A stretch of DNA of 64,000 nt from Apostichopus japonicus (taxonomy: Eukaryota > Echinodermata > Holothuroidea > Aspidochirotida > Stichopodidae): the NCBI RefSeq assembly GCF_037975245.1, contig NC_092580.1:2950501-3014500 (forward strand), given 5' to 3'. Made by a program: the position numbers and the translations under genes. Under the pieces are notes generated by a model. That model searched no databases. It was given only the letters and a program-made list of their open reading frames with translations, and was not told the DNA's origin. Shown here in pieces: positions 3,233 to 46,071 of the stretch. Positions within the stretch are counted from its first letter, which is position 1. Every line of letters begins with the position of its first letter.

Positions 3233-4620
3233 TTTCTTGAATTTAGCTAGTCTATCAAGTGGTAGACTCAGAAGGAAAAGGTAGTGGGAGTTGACTCGGA
3301 TCTCTCCATTCATCCATAAATGTACCAATTCACCAATCCAAACATATAGCTATATACATATACAAACACACATACATAGTTTGACATTTTCAATTTACAA
3401 AAAGAAGAACATTCTTGCTTATTTCATTCCCGTTAAAGCATCTACTTCTCCCTGTCAATTGCGACATCCACCAAAAAACAGTTCTCTCGTTTCATTGAAA
3501 TGAAACTTTTCGCCGTGTTTTGCTCTTCTCTCGTGCTCTGACAATCTACATATAGAATGGCATCTGTATATTCTGTCTTTTCCTTTATGTTGTTTCATCG
3601 TGTAGCCTAGTCGTCTCCAAGAATGATATCTGTTGTATTTTTCTTCATCGCTACCAATTTCCTGAATTGTCTTTGAAAGCATTTCCAATGACGAGAAGTC
3701 TTGAATGAAAATGAACGAATTCGGTGGAGCAACTTTTTCGTATTCTTCATAATCACAAGTTCATAATCACCACAAGCCCCAAACATAGAGATATCCAAAT
3801 ACTTTTTCAAGGAAAGAACAAGGTCAAGTCTTTTATATTGTCTGGAACTAAGAGAGCAATGCGAACTCGTCCACATTATTAATTTAGTCTTAATACTGAA
3901 CCAATTCACATCTTCATCCTTCGGCGAATCAAATTTTTGGAACCACCCATACGGAGTTGGGATGTCTGATTCAGTGTGATAGATAAACGATAAATTAAAC
4001 GTCACCCCTCGTATGTCTTCGGGTGGTCGTAGAGACACACATGTCAGCGGGGACTCATTAGTATGTAGCACCCAAAACTGAGACATGTTCCGTTTGTTAT
4101 GGAAATCTTTCCACTGAGTTCTTGTAATGAAGTTAGTAGCCCCAGTAGAAAACACAACTATATCGGCTTCTGCCACTTCAGCAATAACATTATTAACGTA
4201 AAACAGCGTTCCTTCGCAATGGCACCTTAGAGGATAGTCGATTATAGGTTGATGACGTCCACGTCCAACAATTACGACATGCACACTAGAGTAGTTTTTT
4301 CTTGCCATGAAAAGAGTACGTAAAGTTTTGTTGACAGTCTTTGCTGGCTTGTAGTTGTTACCAACTTTTCCCCGCAAGTGCGATGTTACGTATGTTTTCA
4401 GAATCCAAACGAAAAGAATTGCCAAACCAGCAGATATGCTGAGCCATTTTTTCAAGCGCATTGTGAGTCCGCAAGTAATTATAAGAGTTTAAGAGGTGAT
4501 ACTACAAATTCGAATAACACACAGAAACGAAATATTCGGGCCAGTTCGTGTGTTAATGGTGTCATTGACTTACACACTACAGTCGTCACTTTCAAGGCCT
4601 ACCAAAGCATCGATAGAAGT
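3233..4620. repeat. Segmental duplication, copy 1
   Basis: The block aligns with 11571-13560 over the whole fucosyltransferase reading frame, the 3' flank (shared GAATTTAGCTAGTCT near 3239 and 11569) and the 5' flank (shared GACTTACACACTAC near 4567 and 13502). Copy 2 carries roughly 440 nt more than copy 1 in the 5' flank, at about 12980-13450. Identity is uneven: very high over about 3440-4085 and clearly lower further upstream. Confidence 0.85.
3419..4461 (-). pseudogene. Alpha-1,3-fucosyltransferase (GT10) pseudogene
   Basis: This is a broken paralogue of the intact gene at 11717-12895. The frame from the Met at 4461 keeps the short cytoplasmic end, the type II membrane anchor (ISAGLAILFVWILKTY) and the first half of the catalytic domain, including the acceptor-side block SDIPTPYGWFQKF. 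After CGDYEL the frame is lost. Copy 2 has 147 nt between two matching points where this copy has 8 nt, a net loss of 139 nt that shifts the frame and removes the region containing ENS and ITEKFWDA, the GDP-fucose-binding motif of GT10. The lost frame resumes near 3749 and runs to a stop at 3419-3421, ending CQGEVDALTG plus two residues like the intact copy. A truncated product could be made but should not transfer fucose. Confidence 0.9.
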
Positions 4621-11570: not shown

Positions 11571-13560
11571 AATTTAGCTAGTCTAATAAGTATATTCAAA
11601 ATAGAGAGGTTGTGGGAGTTGACTCTGATTTATCCATCCATCCATTAATAAACATACAAACACACATAAAAAGGTTGACATTCTAAATGTACAAAAACAA
11701 AACGAAATATTATTGCTTATTCTATTCCCGTTAAAGCATCTACTTCTCCCTGACAATTGCGACATCCACCATAATATAGTTCTCCCGTTTCATTGAAATG
11801 AAACTTTTCGCCGCGTTTTGCTCTTCCCTCGTGCTCTGACAATCTACATATAGAATGGCATCTGTATATTCTGTCTTTTCCTTTATGTTGTTTCTCCGTG
11901 TAGCCTAGTCGTCTCCAAGAATGATATCTGTTGTATTTTTCTTCATTGCTACCAATTTCCTGAATTGTCTTTGAAAGCGATTCCAATGACGAGAAGTCTT
12001 GAATGAAAATGAACGAATTCGGTGGAGCAACTTTTTCGTATTCTTCTCGAGTTGCGCCGTACACAACCGGTACTTGGTTGTATATTGTTAATGCGTCCCA
12101 AAACTTTTCTGTTATATATTGCGAGCAGCAACTATTTTCTAAGGCCAGAACAAATTTATATTCGGAAGATGTTTGCAAATATTCATCTCCACGAAGTTCA
12201 TAATCACCACAAGCCCCAAACATAGAGATATCCAGATACCTTTTAAATGATAGGACAAAGTCTCTTCGTTTATATTGTCCGGAACTAAGAGAGCAATGTG
12301 AACTCGTCCACATTATTAACTTAGTCTTAATACTGAACCAATTCACATCTTCATCCTTCGGCGAATTAAATTTTTGGAACCACCCATACGGAGTTGGGAT
12401 GTCTGATTCAGTGTGATAGATAAACGATAAATTAAACGTCACCCCTCGTATGTCTTCGGGTGGTCGTAGAGACACACATGTCTGCGGGGACTCATTAGTA
12501 TGTAGCACCCACAGCTGAGACAAGTTCCGTTTGTTATGAAAATCTTGCCACTGATTTATTGTCATGAAGCGTGTCGTCCCCGTAGTATATACAACCATGT
12601 CGGCTTCTACCACATCAGCAGTATTATTACTTACCTCATACAGCGTTCCATTACAATTGCACCATAGAGGATAGTCGATTGAAATTTGATAACGTCCACG
12701 TCCAACAATTACAACATGCACATCAGGTTTTCTTTTTGCCCTGAAAAGAGTATGCAAAGTGTTCTTAACAGTCTTTGCTGGCGTATAATTGTTACCAACT
12801 TTTTCCCACAAGTATGATGTTTCATATGTTCTCATAATCAAAAAATAAATAATTGCCAAGCCAGCAGATATGCCGTGCCATGTTTGCAAACGCATGGTGT
12901 GTCCGCAGATAACTATAAGAGTGTTAAGAGGTAATACTACAAATGCGAAAAACACACACTTGAACGAAATTTTTAACAGCTCATAAAATATCACAACGAA
13001 ATTCACAAAGAGTCGTCAATAGTGGTACGAACATTTTTACAAATGCACTGATCTAGACGATAGGGGTGGCCAACGTTTACGATGTACGGATCTACTATAT
13101 AACACACTACTGCATTTTCCAAGCAGAATTAGTGTTAATTATGGATGCTTTTAACCACCGCACTGCTTTAATATTGATCCAGATTTGTATAATTACGATA
13201 CGTTGTTTTCTAAGAACCCATTCGTAAAATTTCAAATTATTTTACTTTTCGGTTATAAGGACATAGCCGAACAAAGTCAATGTTTCGTAAAATAGCGAAC
13301 ATTTCTTATCGCAATTGATCAATCATGAGTGATGTCGTTAATGCACAGGTACAAAACATGGTTTGGCTTCCTCCAAAGTTTTCGGAATCCCAGAAAAATT
13401 ACCATTTACCATACATGATGGCGCTCATTACATTGACGTTTAAAGCTCAAACGGGCTAGCGCGTGTGTTTAAGGTGTAGTACCACAATTATACCTTCCAC
13501 AGACTTACACACTACACTCGTCACTTTCAAGCCCTGGCAGAGCAGGGATATCATTTTTCA
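11571..13560. repeat. Segmental duplication, copy 2
   Basis: Partner of 3233-4620. It carries the intact fucosyltransferase, and in its 5' flank about 440 nt (roughly 12980-13450) that are absent from copy 1. Confidence 0.85.
11717..12895 (-). CDS. Alpha-1,3-fucosyltransferase, GT10 family
   Basis: Intronless gene for a type II Golgi membrane enzyme that transfers L-fucose from GDP-fucose onto GlcNAc in N-glycans or Lewis-type antennae (family knowledge; exact acceptor unknown). From the Met at 12895 it is 392 residues, the usual GT10 length. A short cytoplasmic end is followed by the anchor GISAGLAIIYFLIMRTYE, a short stem, the domain block NLSFIYHTESDIPTPYGWF and the donor-binding motif with LALENSCCSQYITEKFWDAL then VPVVYG. 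A Cys-rich C-terminus ends CRNCQGEVDALTGIE. N-glycosylation sequons include RNLSQLW and HTNESP. The frame stays open to a Met at 13006 (429 residues), but the paralogue has an upstream stop in that frame and shares the 12895 start directly before the anchor, so I prefer 12895. Confidence 0.92.
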   Translation of the reverse strand: MRLQTWHGISAGLAIIYFLIMRTYETSYLWEKVGNNYTPAKTVKNTLHTLFRAKRKPDVHVVIVGRGRYQISIDYPLWCNCNGTLYEVSNNTADVVEADMVVYTTGTTRFMTINQWQDFHNKRNLSQLWVLHTNESPQTCVSLRPPEDIRGVTFNLSFIYHTESDIPTPYGWFQKFNSPKDEDVNWFSIKTKLIMWTSSHCSLSSGQYKRRDFVLSFKRYLDISMFGACGDYELRGDEYLQTSSEYKFVLALENSCCSQYITEKFWDALTIYNQVPVVYGATREEYEKVAPPNSFIFIQDFSSLESLSKTIQEIGSNEEKYNRYHSWRRLGYTEKQHKGKDRIYRCHSICRLSEHEGRAKRGEKFHFNETGELYYGGCRNCQGEVDALTGIE

Positions 13561-28179: not shown

Positions 28180-31100
28180 CTGAATATGTTGTATAGACCT
28201 TGGAATAACACTATGGCAACTAAATAACTGTTAATAAGTCTTCCGTCATATTTTATTTTTATTTTACTATGTTGTAATCAGCTTTTACAGGCGCATTTCA
28301 ACAAAGCTATCCCAAAATCTAAATGCCGGGCCAGATAGTCTTCCATTGAGTGTAGAAGCAGGTTATATATTTCCTTTGGCGTTGGGTGGTCAATACCGTT
28401 TATTAATTATAATCTACGACACCATTACTGGTAGTTTTACAATTGTAAAATGTCATCATTATCGTCACAGCTAAACGAAGAGAGCATATCAACTTTAAAC
28501 GACATAGAAGGTGACGTAACGTTTATGTTAAAGCGATCCATACATAAATAACTAACTACATCAAATTTAACCCTATTTATTCACGAGATTTGTGAGTAAT
28601 TTATATTAGATAAAAATATTTATTGCAAAATTACGTAACAATCAAAATACATTTTATCGAAAACAGAATATACAATACACATTAATCGCAAATTTACAAA
28701 CATTTCCCAAATTTTATGAATATGGTATGAACGTTCTATATATATATATAAGATAATGTCAACATTTTCCAGATGAACAATTATTATACAAAATGTTGTT
28801 GAACATTCTCGCAACAAAATCCACCAGAAGTTTATAATATTGTGGGCTTCTCTTGTCCAATATTCGGCGTCTGTAGTTTGGTTTGTTATTTACAGAAAAA
28901 TTAATTCTTTTTTTCACTTTTCATTGGAATATTTCAGTTCCAAGATTTCCACAAAAAAGTCGTAGTATAGCTTCAGGGAATGTGATCGCCAGATATCCGA
29001 AATACAGAGTTCCAAATTTTTTTGGTAGACTTACGGCTATGACGTAATGGTAGAAATGAAAGTCATAGATTTTAACACCTTTTAGTATGTAGTTTTTCCA
29101 TAGACTTATATGAACCTTTTTCTTTGAAACCTATATTAAATATAGCGTCAGAGGCAAAGCATGGTCCGGCCATAAAAGGTACCGAAATTACATAAGGTAC
29201 ACATACATCAAGACTTATGAAATAAAATGTAAACACTTATTTTGCATTTCATTTGCATACAGTAATATTTTACACTAGTCTACTACAATATTATACGTTA
29301 AAGTAATGACATCACTTGACAACACCATTTTTAAAAAGTTTCCAATACTTTTAATTCGTGTTTCGTTTCGTGGAAACATTCGAGGGACTGCGTTCGTTCA
29401 TAACGCTAATATATATTGGTACCTATGAGGATCAATTAGTATATGAAATATAAATGTAACGGTATTTCGTTGGCTGTCACGTGACGTATTGTGTCCATAC
29501 CTAACCGTTGTCAAGAAAAGTATCCATCTTCTTTAAAACTGAAAAATTAAGAAATGCAAAAAAAGAAGAAGAGATAGGTGAAAGTCTGTAATTATTAACA
29601 GTACTGTTAGCTACTCTCTTGAATGGTAGTTCAATTGCAGACGCGTTAACAGGAATTTACAAACATATTCCAGCTCTAATGAAATGAAAGGTTTATTTCG
29701 AGGAGATTAGTACCAACAGCTTTTCGATCATGATCAGTCGAGTGAGTGGAACTTTTTGCATTCAACAAAGGACGAGGCTTGGAAACAATGTAATTAACAT
29801 ATTAATTAAATATTCTTTCTGGTAACAAAATTGACTTTATCATACCTTTATGTTGTTCATAAACGTTTTCCGAGCTTCCAAGTCCATCTACACAGATATA
29901 AGAAAAACTGTCATTGTCCGTTTACATTAATGTTCAAAGGAAAGGATCCACACGTGTATTTACCCCCCCCCCCCCACCAAAAAAATGCAGAAAAACTCAG
30001 TGAGTCATTGCATTGTTAATGTGCACATTTCGGTATATTTTTTTAATCTGGTCATGTCAACATGATGGTCAATGTGTAAAGGAACGAATGACACACAAAC
30101 AGTTTTTATTATTACCATAGGTTACGTAATTTAATAAAGGTACCATACACTGAAACATAGTGTCGTTAGCACAAATCAATTAATTTAAACTTACCAGACC
30201 GGACGAATCTAGTATAAGTTTCATTTCACCCTTATTCATCTATTGTGGTATCAAAAGAAGGAAAGAAAGTAAATTTGACTATGTTTATAGCTTTGGTTGT
30301 AAATTAAAACAACTATACGCTTATGTTAACACTGTAAACATATAGCAGCTGGTCGTTTGATTCGTTAAAAGAATTTTATTGTAATGACAATCATGTTACG
30401 TGTAAACATAAATCAGTACTTCATTCATTTGAAAGGGAGAAGTTTAGTGTTAATTTTTTTCAAACGTAAAATACTATTTATACAGCAAACGATTTGGTAA
30501 CAGTTTTGTCAACTTTTTATAACGAAAATCAACCTCGCACTGAGGTCACAGAACGTATCTTGAAAAACACATATTACCTTATACGATTTTATAATGTGAT
30601 TAAGTAGTTTGTCCTTCATGTCAACTCCGATCTTTGAATGGAAACAGAAAATTGAAACGTAGTGTTTATTGATATAAGTTGTACAACTCGATTGAATACT
30701 TGAATGAAACAAAAGCCACCAATAACGTTAAGGAGAAAAAGGTGTGTTGTGTCCATTAGTGGTAAACCATATTCACCTTTTAGCAATTTTTGCACTATCC
30801 AAATTCATTTTGTGGTTTGTGTATTTTTTTAGTTCGTAATTGATTAAGGACTTTCATAACTTAACGTTACAACCTTTCAACCTTTTCTTGCGTCTAATGA
30901 GCCCGAAGAACTGCCACATGGAAAGTAGTGGTATTTGACGACATTGATTATAGGCCTATCCCGGGAAATCGAACATACGAATCTTCATCAAGAGCAAAAT
31001 TGTATTTAAAGAGAAAGAAAAGCTTGATTGTGATTGGCTTCTTGCAATTTTGCTAAGAGAATGTTAAGTACCTGTGCTTGATGTACCATCGTCATGATCA

Positions 31101-34100
31101 CACGGTTACAGTCTCTGTGTTAGGGGGACTGGGCTTGAGAGTGTATACGTTTGTGTGATTTCCATGCTAGAGCTAAATCTTATATAAATTTTCCTAAAAC
31201 GAAGCTTGATTAGGAATCATAATAGATTGGTGACAGACGTTAGCATATTAAATATTCATTGACAAGTGACTAAGGTTTAACAAGTTAGTAACACATGGTT
31301 CAAACTCGTGAAAGTACTCGAATCAGGAAAGTATAATTTAATTTAGGAAACCAACAATTTATCGACTTACCAATTCTTCAAGTGAAAGTGAAGCCACGTA
31401 GCGAATCCAATTTTCTTTGTTCCACTATGGGAAGCAACAATCATTATATTAAAACGAAATGCTTTTCAACTCTATATATGCGAAATTTTACGACCCTCTC
31501 CGAACTATCGCTTCTACCCACACCTTTGACCAAGCCATAGCTACATACGATCATGTTATTTGTTTAATGTGCTCAGCTAATTGGGTGGGGTATGGCATTA
31601 TTACTCCTTTGAGCTGTGATGTGTAGCAATAGTAGAACATCGATAGGTGCATTTAAGAAACCGTGAAAAGCTAATTTTACAGGGAAGACTAATATAGCTC
31701 ATAAAAATCTTCTGTATTAAATAATCAGGTGCCTTAAAAACAATATGTCATAAAAAGGTTTAAGAATAGAGATAAACACATGGTAGCAAAATTATCAGAC
31801 GCAACGGCGCTTCCGTAAACTCAGTGAAAAACTGTTGATCTTATTTCGTTTTCATATATATTTTGATGCATATACATCATATGCAAAATTCTGTTGAAAG
31901 TAAAATTCCAATGCCGTTAAAGACACAGGGATTCATGAAAATGAACAGAAGCTACTTACCGCATCAGTTCGAATGTAACCATTGAGCAGTTGTTCAAATA
32001 CGTGTTCTGACATCTGAAATTAGAATAAACCTTTACTAGCCTTTTACTATGTCCAAATCAAGCTTTTGAGTACATTGACTATTTGTGGTGGTCTACATTA
32101 TGCCATCAATGATCTATAAAAGGATTTCTGAGTTGTATTGAATGAAACAGGGATGTCTTCCCTGGAAACATAGTATACAGGATGATGTAGCTTGAAGAAA
32201 CGTTAGAACGGTATATAGAGATCGCCGTCAGCCAAGGGCACAGCAATTGGAATACTAGTATCTGGTTTAGTTGCCAGAAAGCAATTGCACTTGTTATTGT
32301 TACAACATTTATATCATGGAAGGTTCATCTCGTATTATAATGGAAATATTTATAAGAAACGTTGGTTAAAGTCCATTCGTCGAGCACCGGAAATCCTATA
32401 TATATATTTGCCTGTATATGAAGTGGTACATTAAAACTTTATAACTTATAAAGTTATAAGGAACTTACGAGATTTTCTTTCAGTATTGTCTTTAGTTCTG
32501 GGTTGACAATTTCACGAACTTTTACCTGCAGAACAAGATCAATTCATTATTTTTTAGTATTTGTGAACAGTGAGCTATTTTCGAGATAGTCAAAAGGAGA
32601 TAAAACGACAGAATGGTTCAAATAACTCGTTATCCAAAGTTACAAGAGAACAAATGTTGGTTGGGTTTTGAACGTTCATTGTCATTACAGTTTAGATTCT
32701 GTCGCCCCAATGGAAGCAAATTTCAATATTGGATTCGACTTATGTCATCAATTTAAATATAGGATAAAATCTCTCTTTGTTTAAAGAGTGGCTTTCACTG
32801 CTGCTGTGTGATATGCTTTTTTCAAGGAAATATACAGTATGTTGCCAACTCATTTATGAATATATATTAATGAATATAATGATTTCATTGTTCAAGCTAG
32901 TGATATGATGTACACATCTTTAACGATTGAAAAGGAAGAAACGTTTTCACATACTTTCTTTTCTTTAATAAGATTTTGAATTTCAACTGAATAGATTCCA
33001 TCCGTAATCTGCAATATGGAGAAATATCGATATTTAGTGGAATGGTTAGTAGTGGTGGTACACAGCAAAGATTATCGCATGAGGAATTTCAAACGGGCAA
33101 AAGCATGCACATGTGGTTTTGAAATAATGCTCAAAATTTGTATAACAATTGAGTATATATTATGAGAAGTACTGCAATAGATAGCATTTAAATATTTTAA
33201 TATTGTACGGTTTATATTAAAATAAAGTTTTTTTTTCACTTACCGTTTCTCAATTTAAAGACACAATAGGTTATTATTATGTCAATGTCAGTTTCAGCTT
33301 AAGTAGTTCATGGTACTTTATCAAGTGTGGACAATAATGATCGTGGACATGTATAGAAGTATATTATCTCGATGGAAAGACCCGTGATTAAATATATTAC
33401 GAAGTGTTAGACACAGCAGACTGTTTTAAACATTAGCTCTGGTATATTTAACTAAGACATTTAAAATCACCATTCTTGCGCTTTTCAAAAGCACGTTATG
33501 CACAGTTTCTTTTGCATTACATTCATGTCATTAAAATAGCGCAGAAGACAAAATATTAAACTTATCGACAGCCACCATTCCTTGTTTGCCAGTTGTATCC
33601 TGTTCGAGCTCTATTAAGAGCTCCTTCAGGCTTATAAACGAGAACTAAAATATTGAGCTTGTATTAAGCAGCTCGCGTATTATGAGACCAGACTCAGGAA
33701 AAAAAACGAACATGTAGCATTCAATGAAGTTTACTAACTTACGAAATTTTCTTTCAAACTCATATGTAACAGTTCCAAAAATGAGTTTGTAGAGAGCTGT
33801 AACAGAAGAAAAGTAAACAGGTTCCATTGAGAATATGAGCATCACGTTCCTGGCTTGGGACATATTGTTGAATATGAATGTCTGGAAGATTCCGGTACAA
33901 CTATGTCGAGTTATATCCCTCTTCCCAATTAAAGAATCATTCGATTAGAAGGGAGGGAGAGAGAGGACGGATAATCAACAACTTCAAAAATTACGCGGTC
34001 TTGCTGTAGTTGTAAATAGAACATTTAGCTTTTAATAAGTTCAGTTGAATATAAAGCGGCAGTTGTTAAAATTAATTGTTGTTACTCACCCAGCTTTCTT

Positions 34101-36563
34101 TTTCAAATGAAACAATTGTCTTATGGTAGTCAGTCTTTTGTATCTGAAGCGCAACAAAATAGAGTTTGAACAGATGCGTGACAATTACGATAATGTTTTT
34201 GCACATCATCGCCTTGACGTCATTTATTGTATTGTATATAATGATTATGACCAGAAGGGTTTAAATATTCATTTTTCCACATTCATGTGCAGCAGCTAAT
34301 CTACTTACCATTTCACCCTCAATGCTCCCTACTATTATATCTGAAAACACTTCACTTGGGATCTGAAAGGGGGAAGAAAAAAGTAGTGTATGTAAACTAA
34401 ATTGTTATCTCGGGGCAACTTAACATCACATTTATGAATGAATGTTCGTAGGCTGAGTTGAGATGGGTGTATAGACAAGTCAAAACATGACGACTCTGCA
34501 GTAAATTACTTTCAAAGAACAGCGAAACCAAACATCAAAGACCTTTCAGGTTGCCAGGTCTTGTCTTCCAATGAAACGTAGAACTAGAACGATAATCCTA
34601 AAAGAAACGAATAAAAACTAAAATAGCCGATCACCAAGTTAAGAAGCATCACTCACAATCACACAATTACAAAGCTAAAACTTACTGTCTTTTTGTTAAA
34701 ACTGAAGACCACAACTTGTAAAAATATCCTTGTCACGTCCTGAATTGGAAAATAATATTTGAAATGAAATGTATCTCGTTAAACACATTGATAATAATCA
34801 ATTGTTATTTCTTTATGGCTAAATTATGCTTGACTGAAACATTCTTGATAAAAATATTCAAGTTTGTATTCTTTTCTCTTGTAAGTGTGGATGGAAAAAT
34901 GGATTTAGCAGCTTCTTGGTAAAAAGGGTCTTGTTTAAATATTTATGCTACTTTGCAGCTTACTATGCAGTTCATTGGTGCAGCCACAACAGGCAATAGA
35001 GTTCTTTGTATGATTAAGAGGAAAACGAAAACTGACATGGAATGTCTGAACAAAGACATTGGTGTTCCATTGTAGGAATAGTTAGATTTCCTCAGGAATA
35101 TACCGTTGGGACTTGAAATATATGCTTGCCTTAAGACTAGAATGGCTTCAAAGTTTCAACGATGTTGTTAGGTTACGCCACTTACTGGGGATATTACATG
35201 ATAGGGGCAGAGATATAAATAAATGAAATCATATCCACGTGTCGTTTGTGTTGGAGAAAAATACTTTCAATGGTTACGAGGCATTAGAAAGTTTTTGTAA
35301 GGCTTGCAACATCCTTTGATGGTTCTGTGTTATGCACTTTTTCCATAGAATCCTTGATGTTTCCCTGTTTATCCTATTTTTTACTAAACTAAAATTAAGT
35401 AACTGCAGCTTTCGAAAACATAACTTCTTGCTCTTACAGTAATACCATTAAACAAAATAATTAAAAGGACACAGCAGTGTATGGTAACATCTTGCTCATG
35501 TAAAATTAACAACAGTTCATCGCCAACTTTGACACAAGACGAATACATCTTAAACTATATACCTTTACCTTGTTGTTTTGCAACGATTCTATAAGTTTCT
35601 CCCTCCATTCATCTTCCGTTGTCTGGTGTATAAGAATAACATATATAATTATATAAATAATAACAGTAGGATATTTTGTCATTATGTTGAACGGTTACAG
35701 TAATAACATTACAAAAGTATTCATTAAAAAGGACACAACAGTGTATGATAAGTACTACTGTAGAGAGTGTGTTGTCAAGTGGCTAAAGCAATGGAATGTC
35801 TATCTAAGGATTACATGTTCGAATCCTGACCAGATCATTACATTGTGTCCTTGAGCAAGGCACTTAATCTCTTCTGCTACTCTTAACCGAGGTGTATAAA
35901 TGGGGTCTGTGGGTACACTCCATAATTGTGGTACACTGTAGTGCCCCGAGAGGGATTGCTTGATGCTATATTTTAATGAACAATTAATTTTCAGGGTTTT
36001 AAAGCAAGTGTCAGTCTGGGTAAAAATGATATGCCCATATAATTCAAGAGTAATAGAGGTGACTATGTATTAATTATTCGTTTAAAAAACGAGTGGGACA
36101 ACTTTTTCAAAGTGATGTTCACATGCAAGATTTCGAAAGGCGAAAATGAAACAATAAACTATGACTCCACCCGCAATAAGACCAATCAGAGTCTCTACGT
36201 TATTTGATCAATTAATGTAGACAGTTGACAGCATTAGACTTATATTATGAAGTGGACATGATTATATCACCTCTTGACATATCGCCATCATATTAATTGT
36301 ATCTTTAAGAGACTTATATAATATTTATATATATATATATATGTTGATACTAGATGAGACTAGTGGAACACTAGTAGTTGTTACTCGGAGTTTCACGCGT
36401 TATAGCGATCTTCAGACAACTCAGAGTTGTCTGAAGATCGCTATAACGCGTGAAACTCCGAGTAACAACTACTAGTGTTCCACTAGTCTCATCTAGTATC
36501 AACATATATTACGCTCTGTCCAATGGACATAGAGCACTCTGCGCCAAGATAGACGCCAACCTA

Positions 36564-36600
<37 letters not shown>

Positions 36601-39600
36601 CACACATTTGTACATACCAATACTTTGCTCACTAGTTGCTGTAGTAAGGTGTACACATTTTGCCGTTCAGGCTCCTGTTTTGAAAAGTAACAAGACTTTC
36701 CATAAATATTTAACAGAGACCTGAATCAGCATATGAGTACATTGAAAATCAGGTACCGTGGATTTGACATAAAAAAGTTCGGTTGCAAGGTCTCTGCAAA
36801 AGTATAAATTTCCACGATACTTGAAGAACCAACCTTTTTATAACATTCATGAATTGACTGTAACAGATACGGGTACGGAACCTGTAAACAACCAAGGAAG
36901 ATAAAGAAAGTTAGGCATTGCTCGAAAAAAGGAACGATGAACCTTGAATCACATCAATCAATTTTGGAATTAGTGATATCCTGTTACAAAGAAAATGTGC
37001 ATTTCTAAAAACAAAAAAATCATAAATGAATACTTGTATTCTTTTCGCTTGAGATATTCTAATAAATGTTGTAGGTCGCACAGCAAAAAATCAATATTAT
37101 CTCTAGTGACAATCTGACATAAATAATATGCTCTAAACGACATTTGTTTCTCTGAATTTTAGTTCATTACGTCCGCAAAGTGAAATATCTTAGTTAAAAC
37201 TTTATTTAACTGCTACTCAAGATAGGACAAAACAAATCGACGGCCCTGCCTTTATGCACTTCAGCATACAACAGTGAATCAGTGATGTAATAATTACCTT
37301 CTCGCCGTCGCCATCAAAGCTAATGTTTTTGAAAACGATGTCATTTGATATCTAGTTTGAAGAAAAAAGCAAACAGGAGACAGTAAAGTATACTAAGAAG
37401 GTTAACATATGCAGGTCAGTTAGCAGAAAAAAATCACTAGGGACCGTTTTAAAAAATACTGCAATGCTGTAAGATGTATGATAGATACAAGCATTAAAAC
37501 GACTGCTTCATTCAATTTCTTGCAAGCAACAACTGTTATCATATTGAAGAACATAAATAAAGTTTCATTCTTGCTGATGATGATTGATAATGATTATGAT
37601 GTACTTACAGCCCCTAATATGTAGTAATGTAATAAATGATCCGTTGTTTTCTTGTGTTTGTACTGTGGCAAAATAAAAGCAATTAAGTTAGAACATATAT
37701 ATGATCCTAATTAAAGATATAAAGACGTACTTACATTATGCATACGTTTAATTTGTTATCATGTGCAAGTATATACATTAAATTACCAATATCTTGTTAT
37801 TCTTACAAAAGCTTTGTTTTTGTTTACTCAGTATACTCAGGCAAGGAAATTTAAATAACTTTGAAATCCTACCTAATTTGCGCCTAACATTTATTTAAGG
37901 GTATACTCAAGGAGGGTAGTGTTTAAATATACGCCAGATAAAACTTCATAAAGATTAGGATTGCACTTAAGAGACGGACAGGATTGTGTTTGCCGTACAA
38001 CCCAAATAATTTCCTTACCTTGTCTTCTATCTTTGTATATTTTATTATTTCATCACGTATACGTTGAAATTGGACCTTCAAAGAAAAAAATCATATTGTA
38101 TGTAAAAGTGGAAAATAAGCTACAAATTGTTTTAGGAGCCGAGGTATGCAAGCAAAGTAAGGCTTTTGGCATACGAGAACGCTGGAATGAACTTTTCTGA
38201 TAAGGTGGTAGTCCTAAATTATTCAAGAATGTGTAGAGATCGAGAAAAGAGACTCACCTGTTCTTTATTCAGAAGAGGGCTTGTAATTAAAGTGTATTGC
38301 TGAAGTGTGATCTGTTGTAAAGGAGGAATATGTAATATTAAAAAAAAAACACTTGGTGATGTTTAAGTGCAAAATTGCGATGAATGATATTAACCAACGG
38401 TACAAAAGGTTCAAAAACTAATATCTGTCAGTAAAAAATGGTTAATTAATAAATAAAAAAATCGGATTCATTGTGTGTTGATCATAAATCAGAGTGACAT
38501 AATTGAAGCTTCAGTAGAGTCGTTATTTGTGCGATATCATGTCATTAAAGGATTAGTTTATGTGAAAGCCAATTTAGATGTTTATAATGCAATATGATGG
38601 AACCAGGTATTAATCGATACATTAACACATACACGCAAACGGACTTTGATTGTGGTATTTGTTATATAACAGTTAATGTTACCTGCTCAGTCGAAAACAT
38701 TTCTCCCGTTATCTCCAAATATTCGTCAACTGAAAGCTACATAAAGAAACATTTAACAACTTAATTAAGAAATATATACAACAGTATGCGTCATTATATG
38801 TAGGGTCATTAAAGTCATTGCTTTATTCGTAATGTTAAGTGAAAGAAAAATATCTCATACAAGAGACTGACCTGATTAACTTCAACTATTGTTCGTAGTA
38901 TTTCAACACCCTGGAAATAGATAATGTTAAACAGAACAAATATTTATGTTTACTCTAATTAATCTACTTAACGTTGTGATTCTTGTTTTGCATATTTTAT
39001 GAAAGACTTTCAAAACATATCAAGTGCTCCACCAAATCGTCTCTTACAACTATAAGAGACCATTTACAAACAATTTAATGTGACAGACACAAATACCAAA
39101 TGCATCTCAAGAACCAAAGTATACCTCTTATCTAATTGAATGCTACTAAATAACTACTATATATCTCTACGATCGGAATAAAGAGAAATTAAAGAGAATA
39201 ACGGTGAACAGATGTGGCATTATGAACATACGTTAGCCTTCGGTTCAATGGCCGCAAAGAGTGTCATCATACAATGCAGTGTCTACAAATGTAAGGTGAA
39301 GAATTGGGTTAGATAACACAATAAGGTTATATAATACAATTAGGTTAGATAATACAATAAGGTTTAACTTAGATAATACAATTAGGTAAAGATAATACAA
39401 TTATTAACCTATTTGGCCACAGCAAGAACAGCAAGAAATGTTATGTAAGGAGAATCTTTTGATATATATAAAAGGATAAAATGCAAAGTCGAGGAAGGAG
39501 GGGGGATTAATTTTTTGACAATATTATTTTATTTCAACTTCCTGAACTCCCATTGTGTAACGTTTGATCCAGAAATTGAAGTACCAGATGAGAAAACTTA

Positions 39601-42600
39601 CAAATAGTTCAGGTTTCAAGAAAAAACAATTGAATTAATTGTTAATGCCTTTATCACATCCGTCTAGTCATAGTGATCATGGATTTTTGAATGGTGTCGT
39701 CGTTGGATCGTTGAAGCCGACTTCTATGTAGGGATCATTGATGTCCACCCCACTCTGAGACATGCTTAGGCTATCAATTCTAAAATTAGATCAACAATAA
39801 GGTTGATATACTTTGTTTCTTTGTGGGATTGAAAAGTGAGGAAGGGGTGCACAGTTGCTAACCCTTGGAAACGCGCCTGTTTGTATCTATCCATTTGTTT
39901 TCTATCGCTACCGTAGTACAATGAGTTTTCTTAATGGTTCATATGTACTTACTTTGTAATCTGCTTGCATCTGTGTTACAAGCGACTGGAGATGATCAAA
40001 TGGGTCCCCCTTTAAATTGAAAGAAACATAAATTTAGCACATCATTATAGACTTAGCAATAGAGCTGAAAGGTTCTAATAAGTTATAAAGCGCTGTGCAA
40101 AGTACTTTTGCCGCCCCTCTCTACCACAAAAAAAGGAAGATAAGTCATCGATCTTTCATATTTTTTAAATCTAGAATTTAAAAGTAAACTGCATCAAGAT
40201 TCCCTTTGCATAAACCAGTTTCTGAGAGGAATACGATTCTGGCCATTTTGACGGAGAGTTTGATTAATTTGCATTACTATGACACTTTTCATTCAACCTT
40301 CCTTTAACTGAAATAAAAGCCCACAGAAGACTGTATTACCTATTGAAATGTTAAGGAGGCGTGATATATTGTGATCTTATTGGAAGAACTCTTTGATCAA
40401 CCGAAGAATGCATTCATGTAATGTATGTCTTGGATTTCGTGGATCTACTTGTGATCCCTGCACAAAAAATCATATAAAAAATCACTGCATATACTCCTCC
40501 ATGATCTGACTTATGGACGGTTCCAGTTCAATAAAATCAAAAGAGAGCACATACCTTTGAATTACTTTGAAATGAACTCACTATCGTCTGCAGATCTTGA
40601 ACCGTAGCCTTGAATGAAGAAGAAAATTAGACGAAATCATTACAGAATGAATACCTATTTACAGTTTTATTTAAAAAATAGAAAAAGAGTTATTTTCAAT
40701 TCCATTTTACACAGATCCATATTTTCATGATATCTTCACTAGTCGCAATTTCAAGCAACAGAATAAACGTGTCTTCAAGTAACATAGTAACAAAGTAAGG
40801 TTTAAGGTAAGAAAACTTTTTTATGTCATCGAACTCATATTTTGAGAAAAAAAACATACGTTGTATAGTAACTACTTTTCTTACCGTGTCATCCTTGCAC
40901 TTGGTACAAAATTTCGAGAAAGAGTTTTCAAGTTTGATCTGCAAAGGTAGAATAAAGTAGCATATTACCTTGACATGGTCGTTACAATTATAGGTAAAAA
41001 ATAATATATTGTCTAATTAGTCAATATAATTGTATAACATTTCAAAATTACAAACATTCCTCTGTAATCACTCGGCTGTTTAAACTTGAAACATTTACTG
41101 TGGCTAAAGCACCTGTGTGATATAGCCTTTTTACTTGGTGATATATTCTGAGATCTTTCAAACCGCAATGTTGTTGGCCATGTATTGAAATACATAAATA
41201 GCTATTCTACTTGCATGAACACGGTTTAATACTATTTTTTTGTTAATATTATTGAAATTAATAAAAACTAAAGTTACAATCCTTAGAACAAAATTTGGGA
41301 GATTAGGAGGTTGCTTAAAGGAAAATGTTAATCAATGAAAAGGCCAACGATATGCAACATTTATGTTAATTTTTCTCTATTCACAGAGTACCTTTAAGTA
41401 CCTTTCTCAGCGTTACACCTGAGTCCGTGAAATGTTTTTTTTTTAACGATAGTTGATTAAAAATGTAAAAGGGATAACTAAGCAAGCACTCTTGGTTTTC
41501 TACACCTGGCACTTTCTCTTCAATATGCTGAAGAATCTTTACCTGCATCTCTGTCGACATCTTTGGTGTTACATTTGAATCGGTAAAATCTTGGTTCTTC
41601 TGTCGTTGGATGATTAAATATGTAAAAGAGATAGATAAGCAAGTACTTTAGGTTTCCTCCCGGTTTGTTGACAGGTTGCTCACAGTAATCTGTCATCATT
41701 TGAGTTGTTTTAGAAAAGGTTCAAATAAATAGTAAAATTTAATTGCTGTGAGGATATAACACCGAATGAGAAATTTTGAGCGAATGGCACAGAGAACAAA
41801 CGTTTTCAATACAATACCGTTGGGAACTACATGGTTTAAGTGACGAATCAAGCGACTTCATGAAGTATCATGTGACTTTGTGCCTTTACATAAAAATGTA
41901 ATTATTACATAAAACAGATCAACCTCATATAAAAAAATGCTAAGACAAATCTGATCTTTTAAGTAAATGTATTCCTTCCCCGTTATTGCGAGTTTATTTT
42001 TCAAACTTGGCATTCCATTTTACATATCGAACACTTATTATGAAAACACGTTTACATACATTTGTTGGTATCATTGAGACCGTTTCCCCTGCATCCTCTT
42101 TATCGGGACCATTTGATGTTCTTTTTTTCTTTTTATTTCGCTGTACTGAGAATTTGAATATGAAGATTATATTAAATATTCCTTTATCATTTAAATTGTA
42201 TGGTGGGAATACACAAATCTTAAAAAAAAAAACATTTTATTACCACAAATTGTTTTTGTGTCTCTGCATGCTAATGTTGTTTCTAATTAACTACCTATTT
42301 TCGTTACTCTTTATCTCAGCCTTATTTTTTGCAGTCATTGGTTACATTAATTTTCACTTGTTTATTCTTTAAAGATAAAATACGAGAACAAAAAATTGCT
42401 TTGTGCGATTATGTTCTTCCCAAATAGAAATATTTCACTGGGCAGCGACATTAAATTTATCTCATAGTGTCTTTCATTTTCGTTGCTACAATTTTGAAAA
42501 TATTAACGCTCTCATAAGTGATTGGCCAAGCAGTGTTATCAACTCCTATGATGCTTTAATTAATCTACACAAATCGTAGCCATCGAAATCGAAAACCTTG

Positions 42601-45600
42601 CACACTCTGTATACTTGGCAGTAATGAAAATCACCATACATTTATAAAGACAAACAGCAACACCGACTGCAACAAAAACGGTAATAGCAATAATAATTAT
42701 TATTGCTACCACGAGCCCTGCGTTGTTCGATTGTTCTAGTGGACACACTTCCTCACCTGGAAACGAAATATAAACATATATACGTTATGTATTAATTTGT
42801 ACTTATATAAGTACCAGATGAAAAAATCTTGCTGGTTCCTAGTTTTGCCATTACCGTTATCAAATGCATTCAATATCTTGCTTCAGTGATATGTTACTAC
42901 CTATCACTATATTATCATTATATTATATTATATATTGATAGGCTACCCAGTTATGAAATTACATTTTCGGCTGAGCAACATGATATTCATATTCACCCAT
43001 TAAAAATGATTCATGTGCAAGGGAAGACTATAGCAGGTTTTTTTTTGCTTTATACAAAATTATTACTGTTGTGAAAACACACACACTTCACGTACGTTAA
43101 TTTGATGAATAATTTAAAAACAAAACTGAGAGAAATGGAAAAGTGACTGTAAGTATGAGAACATCTTAACTATGTCAACCAAACAATATGCATTGCTGAA
43201 CAATTCATTTTCAATAAGATATTTTCTCATAGTTAACTAACTTCATTGAACTCAATATGGACATAGGGGATAAACAAACTCTCGCGACTTTTCAATCGAA
43301 TGAAAAGTAATACTGCTAATACTAAATTAAGACATTATGATAATACAATCATGTTTAATACTTTGAATTATGGTACCGGTCTTTCATCGAGAAAATTGCT
43401 TTTTGTAGCGAGAAAGTTAAATGAAGAAAAACATACTTAGTACGAGGTCTACTCTTGATGGTTTAATTCGTCTTCCGGAAACGTGTGGCACAGCCGGGCA
43501 CATGAAAGCAACCTTACCACACCCCTTTATTTCGTATTCAACTGACAACAAAGTACAGAAGGTGCCATTTCCTTGCTCTAGGTGCGTTTCTATTTTCTCG
43601 TTGAACAAACTGACGGCAGTATTTGAACCAGGCCCGACTTCTACTGTCAAGTCAACGGGTGGTCTCGCTCCTGATATGGAACAGCTTATTGTTCCGGATA
43701 AAGAAGAATATTTGATGCACTGTTCGACCTTTTCACATCCTTTGATAACTGTCACAGGGTTTCGTGGCATGACTGTAGATGAATATCATATATAATTGGA
43801 ACACGTTTGATGTATAAATGATTCATGAAATAGTTACATTTTCTTTTTGTTGTTTCTTCACTAAAATATTAATTTCTCTACAGATATTCATTAGTTTTTA
43901 TCTCTGTCCCTTTGTATCAACCAGAGTGACCATTAGTATAGCGTAACGTGCAGCATTTGAAGTGTTGTTAGGTACTTCCCTAATAATAATCAAAGGCTAC
44001 TGCATTTCCAGATTATTTTCCATTGACAATACTATTCAAGTGATACACAAACATACCATAGACGATTGATGAATACTAGCATTCAATGACACAAAACTTG
44101 AAAAGAACTTACCTAACACTTTTAAATGTACAGTATGCTTTGAAGCGTCAGTTTCATCACTAGAAATGCATTCAAAGGAACGTTCGTCTTCATATGTGAA
44201 ACCATTAAATTCCACCCTCCCATCAGGCAACACATTGCAGTTGAATTTTGCCGCACAAGGAAGATGTTCGTCGTTAGGCCACGCTTCCATTACTATTTCC
44301 TTAGTTCCATTTATTGACGCGGTTTGAAGCCTGCCAGTGGGTTTATCATTCATTGGGCACTTGATTTGAAAACGTTCATTGTCGTTAACGTATTTAACTT
44401 CTGATGTTATTCTCGAAACTGGAAGGTTCCCTTCGACCAAACATGATGCATTTGTTACTTTAGCTACTGCATGACCAGATGCGCTACATGTAAGGAACTG
44501 CAATGTGAAAGCCCTTTTGGGATGTTTGAAAGTTACAATGGTTGTGTACAGTTGGGTAGTGTCGTTAAATTGTTTCACTTCATTGCTGAGAAGAGTAGTA
44601 CCGTTATCATTCATTAATTTCAACTCTATTTCAGGATTTGTATCCTTTGCAATGCACAAGACAGTGTTTTCATCTGTTTCTTGATATTGTTTGCAAAATG
44701 ATGGTGACGACATGCAGTCGGTTATTGCTAAATCTTTTAAAATAACTGTGAAACAAAAAGAGAGGAAGAAATTGATTGAATACTGAGGGTTACCGGCAGA
44801 GGGAATGGGTAATTGACATCTTTACCAGGTTTTGCGTTTGTTTTGGTATGAGAGTAAAGTAGTTCAACTAGTGTAGTGGGGATATAGTTCAATATTTCTA
44901 TGAACTTAAACTTAAGACAATGTACGGGTATAAGTTCAAATACTAATAATTGTGTAATTACTCACACATTTATTTTTCATAGTTACAATAAATCATTATT
45001 TAATCCCTTTCACGCTATAATGTGTGGTAAGAAGATCGATGATGGGTATATTCGGGAGGTAAAAATTATTAACAGCTTCAACAGCAAATATAAAATACCC
45101 AGTTTTTACCTTTCCGTCAATAAAAAGATTGCAGTAAAATATATTCATGCAGGCCATTTTCATGTGAAAGTTGCTTACCCAAGACAATAACCATGATCTC
45201 AGATCTGGAGTTGCTTCCATCTGAATGCAGGATTGATACCGTGTAGCTCCTCTCGTGACTTAAATTAACTTCGTTGATAACCATTGATCCATCATCCAAT
45301 ATGTCATACTCTCCTGATGAATAGCCAGTCCCACTTTTCCTGGTGCCATCAATCCGTAAGAAGGAAAGGTCGGTTTCCGTGAAGTACCACCTTACGGTGT
45401 GAAAATTTCTGTCGTACTTGCAAGTAATCACTGCTTTCTGGTAACGTTCAACATAGTACTTTTCTTCACATTCAGCTTTTGGGAGGTTTACATCTTCTGT
45501 GCAGGTATGAAGATCAACATGAAGTGTAGGAAAAGTACTTTACAATCTAACGTCAACATCAATCTTAGTTCTAGTGCTTGTCAGCCTAGGTACCAAGCCC

Positions 45601-46071
45601 ATCGTGATTATTGCTAGCAACATTTACTAATATTATCCACACATCCATAACGTCATGTTATTTTACAGAAGGGGCAGTGAACGTTAAATAACGATGAATG
45701 CGCCGTCTTTGTTCATAAATGTTGTACTGACATTTCTATCTCCATGAACAATTCCCTATATTTTGCGAAAAAAACTATTTTCCTTACATAGTTATAGGAG
45801 AATAATAAGAAACGTTCGATTGATTTTCGTAACAGTCCTGAGATGCGGTGACTGCATATGGCTTAATATCTTGGTTAACCATTACCAACTTACCGTTTTC
45901 CGAAGGGGAGAGGGATAACACATGGAGACATATTTGCCGTATTTGAGAGTTATGTCAACTGAAACAAGGCGCACTGACATATATTTCCTCAAAAAACTTA
46001 CCACTGACTATCAGGAAAGGCAGCAATGTTAATGTAAGAATGAGTTCTATGTACTTCACTTGTAGAGTCAT
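27979..46071 (-). CDS. Gene D: Ig-domain membrane receptor with an 18-residue micro-exon repeat tail
   Basis: A predicted 982-residue type I membrane protein from 31 exons. Exons 1-6: 46002-46071, 45179-45496, 44113-44745, 43437-43772, 42640-42756, 41402-41418. Then come 24 micro-exons between 40938 and 29846, and the last exon 27979-28179. The exon lengths sum to 2949 nt, divisible by three, with matching phases throughout. Residues 1-23 are a signal peptide and 24-452 are about four Ig-like domains. A membrane helix follows within 453-491, the 18-residue repeat region is 498-916, and a coiled coil with an Arg/Ser-rich tail is 917-982. There is no kinase domain. Extracellular exons are phase 1-1, the usual Ig-shuffling phase; all tail exons are phase 0-0. 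It lies between pseudokinase receptors A and B on the same strand. I recognise no family with this tail, so its function is unknown; ligand binding outside and helical oligomerisation or scaffolding inside are inferences. Confidence 0.85.
28180..29845. other. Gene D last intron
   Basis: The longest gap near the 3' end of the tail region. No further 54-nt exon was found, though decayed ones could be missed. An AT microsatellite lies near 28737-28751. Confidence 0.5.
29846..34362 (-). CDS. Gene D micro-exons 15-24 (tail repeats)
   Basis: Ten phase-0 exons bounded by AG and GT, in transcript order. 34309-34362 IPSEVFSDIIVGSIEGEM; 34090-34143 IQKTDYHKTIVSFEKESW; 33743-33796 LSTNSFLELLHMSLKENF; 32955-33008 ITDGIYSVEIQNLIKEKK; 32469-32525 VKVREIVNPELKTILKENL; 31960-32013 MSEHVFEQLLNGYIRTDA; 31371-31424 WNKENWIRYVASLSLEEL; 30578-30631 IGVDMKDKLLNHIIKSYK; 30195-30239 MNKGEMKLILDSSGL; 29846-29887 MDLEARKTFMNNIK. 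Seven are exactly 54 nt, one is 57, and the last two are shorter (45 and 42). The aromatic at position 6 and the paired hydrophobics at 9/10 and 13/14 are clearest in this block. Confidence 0.85.
34686..38075 (-). CDS. Gene D micro-exons 8-14 (tail repeats)
   Basis: Phase-0 exons in transcript order. 38019-38075 VQFQRIRDEIIKYTKIEDK; 37609-37662 YKHKKTTDHLLHYYILGA; 37298-37351 ISNDIVFKNISFDGDGEK; 36834-36881 VPYPYLLQSIHECYKK; 36624-36674 EPERQNVYTLLQQLVSK; 35569-35622 TTEDEWREKLIESLQNNK; 34686-34739 DVTRIFLQVVVFSFNKKT. Lengths are 57, 54, 54, 48, 51, 54 and 54 nt. Donors include GTAAGT, GTAAGG, GTAATT, GTTGGT, GTATTG and GTAAAG; the GTTGGT and GTATTG donors are weaker and could mark alternatively used exons. 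Confidence 0.82.
35762..35965 (+). mobile_element. tRNA-derived SINE
   Basis: The head carries an A-box-like TGGCTAAAGCAATGG (35780-35794) and a B-box-like TGTTCGAATCC (35816-35826) at tRNA spacing. About 25 nt later comes TTGAGCAAGGCACTTAATC, a conserved body motif shared by many metazoan SINEs. It sits in a gene D intron, antisense to the gene. Ends are approximate. Confidence 0.8.
36337..36509. repeat. Perfect giant palindrome: two 86-bp arms around one base
   Basis: Arms 36337-36422 and 36424-36509 are exact reverse complements around the single base at 36423. The middle reads CAGACAACTC-A-GAGTTGTCTG. It lies in the gene D intron between micro-exon 12 (36624-36674) and micro-exon 13 (35569-35622), next to AT and CT/AT microsatellites. 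Confidence 0.95.
36563..36600. repeat. (CT)n(AT)n microsatellite
   Basis: Compound dinucleotide run, CT then AT, ending 24 nt before the 3' edge of micro-exon 12. Confidence 0.9.
38258..40938 (-). CDS. Gene D micro-exons 1-7 (tail repeats)
   Basis: Phase-0 exons in transcript order. 40885-40938 IKLENSFSKFCTKCKDDT; 40555-40608 ATVQDLQTIVSSFQSNSK; 39953-40009 GDPFDHLQSLVTQMQADYK; 39232-39282 TLHCMMTLFAAIEPKAN; 38872-38910 GVEILRTIVEVNQ; 38683-38736 LSVDEYLEITGEMFSTEQ; 38258-38311 ITLQQYTLITSPLLNKEQ. Lengths are 54, 54, 57, 51, 39, 54 and 54 nt. This membrane-proximal block is the most divergent from the consensus and includes the shortest unit (13 codons). Confidence 0.82.
39308..39405. repeat. 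Minisatellite, about 20-nt unit
   Basis: Four to five imperfect repeats of the type TTAGATAATACAATTAGG, within a gene D intron. Confidence 0.75.
41400..41670. repeat. Diverged tandem duplication around the 17-nt exon
   Basis: The segment from about 41402 (CTTTCTCAGCGTTACAC) aligns with one from about 41561 (CTTTGGTGTTACATTTG). Both run on through ATGTAAAAG and AAGCAAG text, giving a period near 160 nt. Only the first copy keeps splice sites around the 17-nt exon. Confidence 0.65.
41402..41418 (-). CDS. Gene D 17-nt micro-exon linking membrane helix and repeats
   Basis: Acceptor GACTCAG and donor GTACTT bound 17 nt. Taking one base from the membrane exon it reads C-VTLRK, converting phase 1 to phase 0, which is exactly what is needed to join the phase-1 membrane exon to the phase-0 repeat exons. 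Without it the chain has no correct join that I can find. Confidence 0.6.
42640..42756 (-). CDS. Gene D transmembrane exon
   Basis: 117 nt, phase 1-1. It reads EEVCPLEQSNNAG, then a long helix LVVAIIIIIAITVFVAVGV followed by AVCLYKC. The donor T|GTATGG is chosen for phase; ATG|GTGATT two bases further is an alternative. Confidence 0.8.
43437..43772 (-). CDS. Gene D Ig exon 4
   Basis: 336 nt, phase 1-1. Ig-like features are GTISCSISGARPPVDLTVEV, a hydrophobic strand TFCTLLSVEYEI, and KVAFMCPAVP supplying the second cysteine. No canonical Trp is present in strand C. Extra cysteines suggest additional disulphides. Confidence 0.75.
44113..44745 (-). CDS. Gene D Ig exon 3: two Ig-like domains in one exon
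   Basis: 633 nt, phase 1-1. The first domain is marked by NTVLCIAKDTNPEIELKLM and FTLQFLTCSASGHA. The second is marked by NERFQIKCPMNDKPTG and EDERSFECISSDETD. Several N-glycosylation sequons (NGT, NDT, NAS) are present. An intron between the two domains, seen elsewhere in the gene, is missing here. Confidence 0.8.
45179..45496 (-). CDS. Gene D Ig exon 2: V-like domain lacking the second cysteine
   Basis: 318 nt, phase 1-1. It has AVITCKYD, then HTVRWYFTETDLSFL (strand C Trp), then GSMVINEVNLSHERSYTVSI. The position that is normally Y-x-C reads Y-T-V, so the canonical intradomain disulphide cannot form. Confidence 0.8.
46002..46071 (-). CDS. Gene D first coding exon: signal peptide
   Basis: ATG at 46071 opens MTLQVKYIELILTLTLLPFL then IVS, a classical signal peptide, with donor G|GTAAGT. 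Phase 1 joins to exon 2 (EDVNLPKAECEE). The 5' UTR and promoter were not resolved. Confidence 0.85.

Follow-up and report, generated by a model that had tools for sequence, protein, structure and literature searches.

A receptor gene of Apostichopus japonicus with a predicted cytoplasmic tail of one-helix microexons

In the chicken, BG genes of the butyrophilin family encode an immunoglobulin (Ig) V ectodomain, a membrane exon and a long cytoplasmic tail made of many tiny exons. According to two papers, each gene of the B12 haplotype has 13-36 tail exons (mean 26), the number differs between genes, alternative splicing of the tail is reported, and the exons, 21 nt long (a few 18 or 24) with a split first codon, encode heptads thought to form a coiled coil (PMC5938342, PMC4046983). 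Here we describe a gene with a related design in the sea cucumber Apostichopus japonicus. It lies in a stretch of 64,000 nucleotides, C20:2950501-3014500, which we call the window and to which positions without a prefix refer. The gene, named W, is on the minus strand and carries at least 24 microexons, mostly of 54 nt, downstream of Ig and membrane exons. The original prediction for this DNA knew of no receptor with such a design; chicken BG has it in outline and is the closest published design that we found (PMC5938342, PMC4046983). In both, an Ig-V domain and a membrane span precede a tail encoded by numerous tiny symmetric exons. However, the W exons are mostly 54 nt, in phase 0 and predicted to form one capped helix each, rather than 21-nt split-codon heptads. 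The likeness is between a bird and an echinoderm; it is one of design and does not imply a common family.

A second described system comes from A. japonicus itself. AjNLRC4 is reported to have an Ig ectodomain, a membrane location and an intracellular NACHT, to bind microbes, to interact with beta-actin and to support Vibrio phagocytosis (PMC8699970). NLRs with V-set domains are also noted for another holothurian, Chiridota heheva (PMC8913654). W resembles receptors of the AjNLRC4 type in its Ig ectodomain (Pfam V-set and C2-set_2) and in the transmembrane helix that follows the Ig domains (by hydropathy), and relatives of its V-set exon sit upstream of NACHT exons. The difference is inside the cell: AjNLRC4 has a NACHT that binds beta-actin and two predicted membrane segments, whereas W has the microexon array.

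Exons of 54 bp, or 18 residues, are also a feature of fibrillar collagen genes (PMC4450265), and the available portions of PMC13428168 and PMC13228809 do not mention a tail like that of W. Nor do the titles and abstract openings listed in searches of open-licence papers describe such a tail. The 54-bp exons of collagens encode Gly-X-Y, and a collagen-like array was rejected because the W peptides are without Gly-X-Y. Schistosome micro-exon genes have runs of very short symmetric exons, shorter than those of W, and encode mostly secreted or small proteins. We know of no schistosome micro-exon gene for an Ig receptor with an 18-residue register.

The explanation that we favour, and hold to be somewhat better than an even bet, is that W encodes a type I membrane receptor with, in predicted order, a signal peptide, V-set and C2-type Ig domains, a further Ig-like exon, a membrane helix and a basic stub, followed by a tail whose microexons, at least 24 in number, would form a scaffold with one helix per exon. 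All 24 intervals, running on the minus strand from 40938 to 29846, have an AG acceptor and a GT donor and are open in phase 0. Their lengths are 39, 42, 45, 48, 51, 54 (15 times) and 57 nt, and together they encode 421 residues. The 24 AG/GT phase-0 micro-exons of the original prediction, 15 of 54 nt and the rest of 39-57 nt, were therefore all recovered. Microexons 1-5 (38872..40938) are at 40938-40885, 40608-40555, 40009-39953, 39282-39232 and 38910-38872; microexons 6-12 (36618..38736) at 38736-38683, 38311-38258, 38075-38019, 37662-37609, 37351-37298, 36881-36834 and 36674-36618; microexons 13-17 (33743..35622) at 35622-35569, 34739-34686, 34362-34309, 34143-34090 and 33796-33743; microexons 18-21 (31371..33008) at 33008-32955, 32525-32469, 32013-31960 and 31424-31371; and microexons 22-24 (29846..30631) at 30631-30578, 30239-30195 and 29887-29846.

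Such exons are short and each is weak alone, with own-genome matches no better than E-value 1.8e-5, and an AT-rich intron might hold spurious open frames between AG and GT by chance or as decayed sequence. We regard this as scarcely credible. A splice-consensus filter alone, applied to positions 29000-42757, gave 31 candidates on the array strand vs 5 on the opposite strand, or 15 vs 1 when restricted to 54 nt. In 12 array segments, from W and the 11 paralogues introduced below (five of the arrays partly fetched), sense-strand open AG..GT intervals of 36-63 nt numbered 311 with length 3n, 74 with 3n+1 and 66 with 3n+2. They peak at 54 nt, with 152 vs 7, 4, 6 and 5 at 52, 53, 55 and 56 nt. The antisense strand has a smaller 3n excess (87, against 48 and 46) which is without explanation and leaves chance some room, and we therefore took the 54-nt peak as the stronger evidence. 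The 15 window 18-mers also share a register: their leave-one-out profile score was -3.9, compared with -12.8 (standard deviation 1.6) for within-peptide shuffles and -12.9 (standard deviation 1.8) for rotations, and 0 of 500 in each control reached it. The original prediction had staked itself on the 18-mers being more alike than shuffled sequence, which they are, and the shared hydrophobic pattern it described stood up to the register test. Strand bias, register and the length peak led us to reject chance open frames, and the conserved exon order and dN/dS of about 0.5 in three close pairs, both described below, argue the same way.

The two-Ig exon of W has 11 relatives in the genome at an E-value of 0.01, with 28-33% identity, ten of them in two C20 clusters and the other on C12. 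We refer to these paralogues as A (L007+L018+L023), B (L009+L019), C (L017+L020, on contig C12), D (L016+L021), E (L011+L022+L024), F (L012+L025+L026), H (L013), I (L014), J (L015), K (L008) and M (L010); for the last five 10 kb each was fetched, so their arrays are partial. A membrane-like segment follows the Ig exons in all 11 (12 of 12 with W, by hydropathy), and in all 11 small phase-0 exons lie downstream of the Ig and transmembrane exons. Comparison with 300 permutations showed exon order to be conserved in nine of the 13 gene pairs examined. It scored above every permutation in seven pairs (W-B, W-C, W-D, W-A, B-C, B-D and A-B) and was reached by 1 of 300 in A-C and C-D. Nineteen of the 24 window exons are matched by a colinear exon in one or more of A, B, C and D with a pair score that reaches the 95th percentile, examples being VPYPYLLQSIHECYKK / IPYPYFLQSIHNKFQG and WNKENWIRYVASLSLEEL / WDRDRWIKFVTELANEDL. 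Counterparts of the exon at 36881-36834 (VPYPYLLQSIHECYKK) occur in A, B and C, and those of the exon at 31424-31371 (WNKENWIRYVASLSLEEL), scoring 38-53, in B, C and D; none of these four paralogues has one for the exon at 36674-36618.

Two more V exons lie outside the 11 paralogues, at C20:25580678-25580983 and C20:25282443-25282751, the second with an in-frame TGA. In K and M (L008, L010), 57-nt exon candidates rich in lysine and threonine recur after the membrane segment and before the helix array, and these may be another class of repeated microexon.

The close paralogues show that the arrays are both constrained and changeable. The ratio of non-synonymous to synonymous substitution (dN/dS) was 0.51 (bootstrap interval 0.37-0.75) for A/E over 25 exon pairs, 0.53 (0.38-0.81) for A/F over 20 and 0.45 (0.31-0.65) for E/F over 17; for the Ig exon of A/E it was 0.37. 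Further values were 0.50 for A-H (7 exons), 0.39 for E-H (6) and 0.35 for K-M (7), and A-C had no exon pair usable for dN/dS. Off-frame controls gave 1.09 and 1.15 for A/E, 0.65 and 0.89 for A/F, and 0.65 and 1.11 for E/F. One 54-nt exon type, the VDKESFLTFTMSLLKE.L type, is present in 8 copies in A, 5 in E and 7 in F. Identity between its tandem units reaches 93% in A and 90% in F, compared with 72-81% in E, which suggests that the duplication is only partly recent. Among 190 pairs of copies, 180 have flanks less than 85% identical, and in 162 of these 180 the exon is more alike than the flanks. The pooled dN/dS of copy pairs with upstream flanks below 85% was 0.41, from pairs that are not independent. 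F is without exons that A and E have between the same neighbours, as judged by eye. Exons thus duplicate and drop out in frame in A, E and F. No similar tandem copies were called in W, and so the proposal that the tail grew by exon duplication is supported by those three paralogues, with no sign of it seen in the gene for which it was made. The duplicated exon of A (L018, L023), E (L022) and F (L025) may vary in copy number between individuals.

The symmetric phase 0 of all 24 window exons, together with the tandem copies in A, E and F, would also suit a tail diversified by splicing, in which microexons, especially similar tandem copies, are included alternatively or, in the manner of Dscam, mutually exclusively to give many isoforms per gene. 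Against this, the order kept in the nine gene pairs and the counterparts of the 19 window exons are what a fixed fold would lead one to expect, and W itself has no such copies called; we think diversification by splicing unlikely. The earlier idea that any exon could be skipped is sound for the reading frame, but the conserved order does not favour exons as freely interchangeable parts.

The shape of the 18-residue unit bears on whether each exon forms its own helix. Eighteen residues make five turns, the pattern within exons is amphipathic, and BG tails are thought to be coiled coils. The original prediction accordingly had the hydrophobic face of one helix stay in register through all five turns, and the tail would then be one long helix or coiled coil, as inferred for BG. 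We analysed 95 non-redundant 18-mers drawn from 158 candidates of 54 nt, among them splice-only ones. From position 6 to 15, hydrophobicity tracks one helix face with r = -0.98, a value that is partly fitted, the face direction of 265 degrees having been taken from where the window peptides are hydrophobic. When the helix is extended across the junction (positions 16-18 and 1-5) r becomes +0.51: 11% of the 18-mers are hydrophobic at position 17, the centre of the face, compared with 66% at position 1, which lies opposite. Exon starts carry their own pattern. Of the 95, 25 have S, T, D or N at position 2 with E, D or Q at position 5, where 1000 shuffles gave a mean of 4.7 and at most 14; 47 are hydrophobic at both position 1 and position 6 (shuffles: mean 11.2, at most 23). 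We take these to be what are called a capping box and a hydrophobic staple, marking new helices. The break in the face and the capping pattern lead us to read each exon as its own capped helix of about three turns, with a turn near the exon border. The continuous 18-residue helix was rejected on the failure of the face pattern across the junction, and we give it very little credence.

Repeated short amphipathic helices with aromatic residues might instead rest against the membrane's inner leaflet or bind lipid, without packing into a protein scaffold. In a global alignment of five tails, identity to the W tail is 20-27%, not far from the 29-33% that the Ig exon shows in an alignment of five paralogues, and there is conservation of position-specific exons. 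By way of argument this suggests specific packing, and we consider the lipid-bound arrangement improbable.

Searches with the tail returned no relative that would place the scaffold in a known family. All Pfam matches of the W, A and C tails were below cut-off, and five tails gave no helical-repeat family (TPR, HEAT, ARM or others) at an E-value of 0.1; their best matches were to unrelated single families (E-values 0.0037 and 0.0044), each in one of the tails, which we take as chance. NCBIfam searches with the spliced tails, and PDB sequence searches with one tail and a tail profile (best E-value for the profile 0.69), found no convincing relative, and Rfam on the window was without result. 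An intronless or processed copy of the tail, sought in the genome, yielded nothing beyond short, weak matches, and these all lie on C20, at or close to the family arrays. The longest covered up to 84 query residues at 35-43% identity (E-values 0.03-0.08) and are taken as chance extension into introns.

The wider genome places this tail beside a different solution. There are at least 150 V-set-like exon matches, and we used the best 150 of 378 candidates, W's own included. Among the matches listed, 88 are on C16, 21 on C9, 13 on C12 and 12 on C20; what they share is the V-set domain, and a single receptor family is not implied. F's own V exon is absent from these best 150. Of the 150 listed V exons, 30 are followed on their own strand, at no more than 20 kb, by one of the best 106 of 487 NACHT matches; 1 has such a match upstream and 0 have one on the opposite strand. 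In five sampled V loci away from C20 the exon caller found 0, 0, 1, 0 and 1 exon in 10 kb, and so no array; one of them, L031, has 14 sense vs 2 antisense splice-only candidates, none of 54 nt. In three of the five, further Ig-like frames and a membrane segment are followed by a long NACHT-like frame: L030 (C16:45820314+), L032 (C12, 25162919 downward) and L034 (C16:41726499+). Pfam NACHT was significant in two submitted frames (E-values 1.6e-14 and 3.3e-6), and the third overlaps a listed NACHT match. There may be a large repertoire of Ig-NACHT surface receptors, with AjNLRC4 as one published case.

In W's clade we see a helix array and detect no NACHT. None of the 12 listed C20 V exons has a downstream NACHT among the matches listed, none of the 106 listed NACHT matches is on C20, NACHT is not among the Pfam matches of the five tails, the W tail included, and the minus strand between 29.8 and 42.6 kb of the window holds no open frame of 150 residues or more. 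A tail derived from a NACHT exon in detectable form was rejected, with an hhalign probability of 0.2% against three NACHT exons and 0.6, 0.0 and 0.1% in column-shuffled controls (n=3).

Several points weigh against our explanation. The splicing and tail length of W are predicted from genomic sequence alone, and the all-alpha fold is itself a prediction. A terminal, stop-bearing exon was sought in the window gene and not found; short lysine-rich candidates follow the array in A, E, F and C, and none is convincing in W. On the 12 genes the profile-based exon caller found 184 sense-strand exons and 0 on the antisense strand, with 4 more in a control of 36 shuffled sequences, and its profile was trained on the same 12 genes, making the 184-to-0 count partly circular; the fitted face direction is a similar concern. 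No helix periodicity of 2, 4 or 6 exons was seen. Exon order was not significant for A-D (38 of 300 permutations), W-I (188), W-J (54) and W-K (32), the I, J and K arrays being partial. The off-frame dN/dS controls are partly far from 1 (frame +1 gave the 0.65 of both A/F and E/F), and F-H gave 0.93 over 5 pairs. W-B (0.54) and W-C (0.80) had 1 usable exon pair each, so purifying selection is shown among close paralogues only. The absence of NACHT in W's clade depends on the best 106 of 487 matches and on inspection of open frames. Finally, W was compared with AjNLRC4 by layout, not by sequence, and AjNLRC4 is predicted to have two membrane segments (PMC8699970).

If the one-helix-per-exon explanation is right, the microexons would be spliced together, mostly all of them and in order, and the spliced tail would be an all-alpha scaffold or solenoid of short capped helices, one per exon. 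This scaffold would occupy the place held by a NACHT NTPase in related receptors of the same genome, as in the AjNLRC4 layout. Ligand binding could then be relayed by recruiting cytoplasmic partners, perhaps cytoskeletal as with AjNLRC4. In-frame duplication and loss of exons would alter the length of the tail between paralogues and leave the frame intact. By analogy with AjNLRC4, the one case available, W presumably has a role in immune recognition by coelomocytes.

The exons upstream of the array fit the receptor layout to differing degrees. The putative signal-peptide exon (46002..46071, minus strand, as are all the W exons) has its ATG at 46071, ends in phase 1 and has a hydrophobic N-terminus, read from the sequence by eye only. 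The V-set exon (45179..45496) matches Pfam V-set at an E-value of 8.8e-7, and the two-Ig exon (44113..44745), a C2-set type plus a second Ig, matches C2-set_2 at 3.4e-5 for its first domain. AlphaFold2, given 6 sequences, modelled the two-Ig exon mostly as beta strands with a mean pLDDT (predicted local distance difference test) of 82, and Foldseek with this model returned generic Ig structures with TM-scores of about 0.3-0.4. PDB sequence searches with two Ig exons gave no useful result, the V exon being without a phmmer match at an E-value of 0.1. The next ectodomain exon (43437..43772) is an open reading frame that looks Ig-like from its cysteine pattern, by eye, and was without a match in Pfam. 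The transmembrane exon (42635..42756), with an uncertain donor position, has a mean hydropathy of 3.26 over 20 residues, which upholds the membrane helix predicted upstream of the microexons. It is followed by a phase-0 juxtamembrane basic exon (42060..42140, RNKKKKRTSNGPDKEDAGETVSMIPTN), recognised from its sequence, and possibly by an extra 57-nt exon (41543..41599, KNQDFTDSNVTPKMSTEMQ), an uncertain AG/GT phase-0 candidate for which no counterpart was identified.

Other features of the window were seen in passing. A perfect 86-bp inverted repeat with a 1-bp centre lies within an array intron at 36337-36509. Two similar receptor-like genes seem to flank W on the minus strand, at about 18.3-23.9 kb and 51.2-57.5 kb, their similarity and membrane segments being judged by eye; that at 51.2-57.5 kb matches Ig_3 below cut-off and, weakly, a tyrosine kinase (E-value 0.026). 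Two frames of glycosyltransferase family 10 (fucosyltransferase), identified by Pfam, are at 3607-4488 and 11717-13015 (minus strand).

A bolder reading, which we think less likely than not, is that W's clade, within a very large set of echinoderm Ig receptors, swapped NACHT for a kit of helices, one capped helix per symmetric exon, and that tandem duplication, loss and possibly splicing retune the length of the tail and its surface for partners, in parallel with the independently evolved BG tails of the chicken. These results suggest that Ig receptors with tails of numerous tiny symmetric exons occur in a second lineage of animals, where the helix unit differs from that of BG. Next to the known sea-cucumber Ig-NACHT receptor for phagocytosis they set a branch in which no NACHT was detected, and the genome concerned has at least 150 V-set-like exons. 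With one exon to one helix, the design would also make it possible to test how exon duplication enlarges helical scaffolds.

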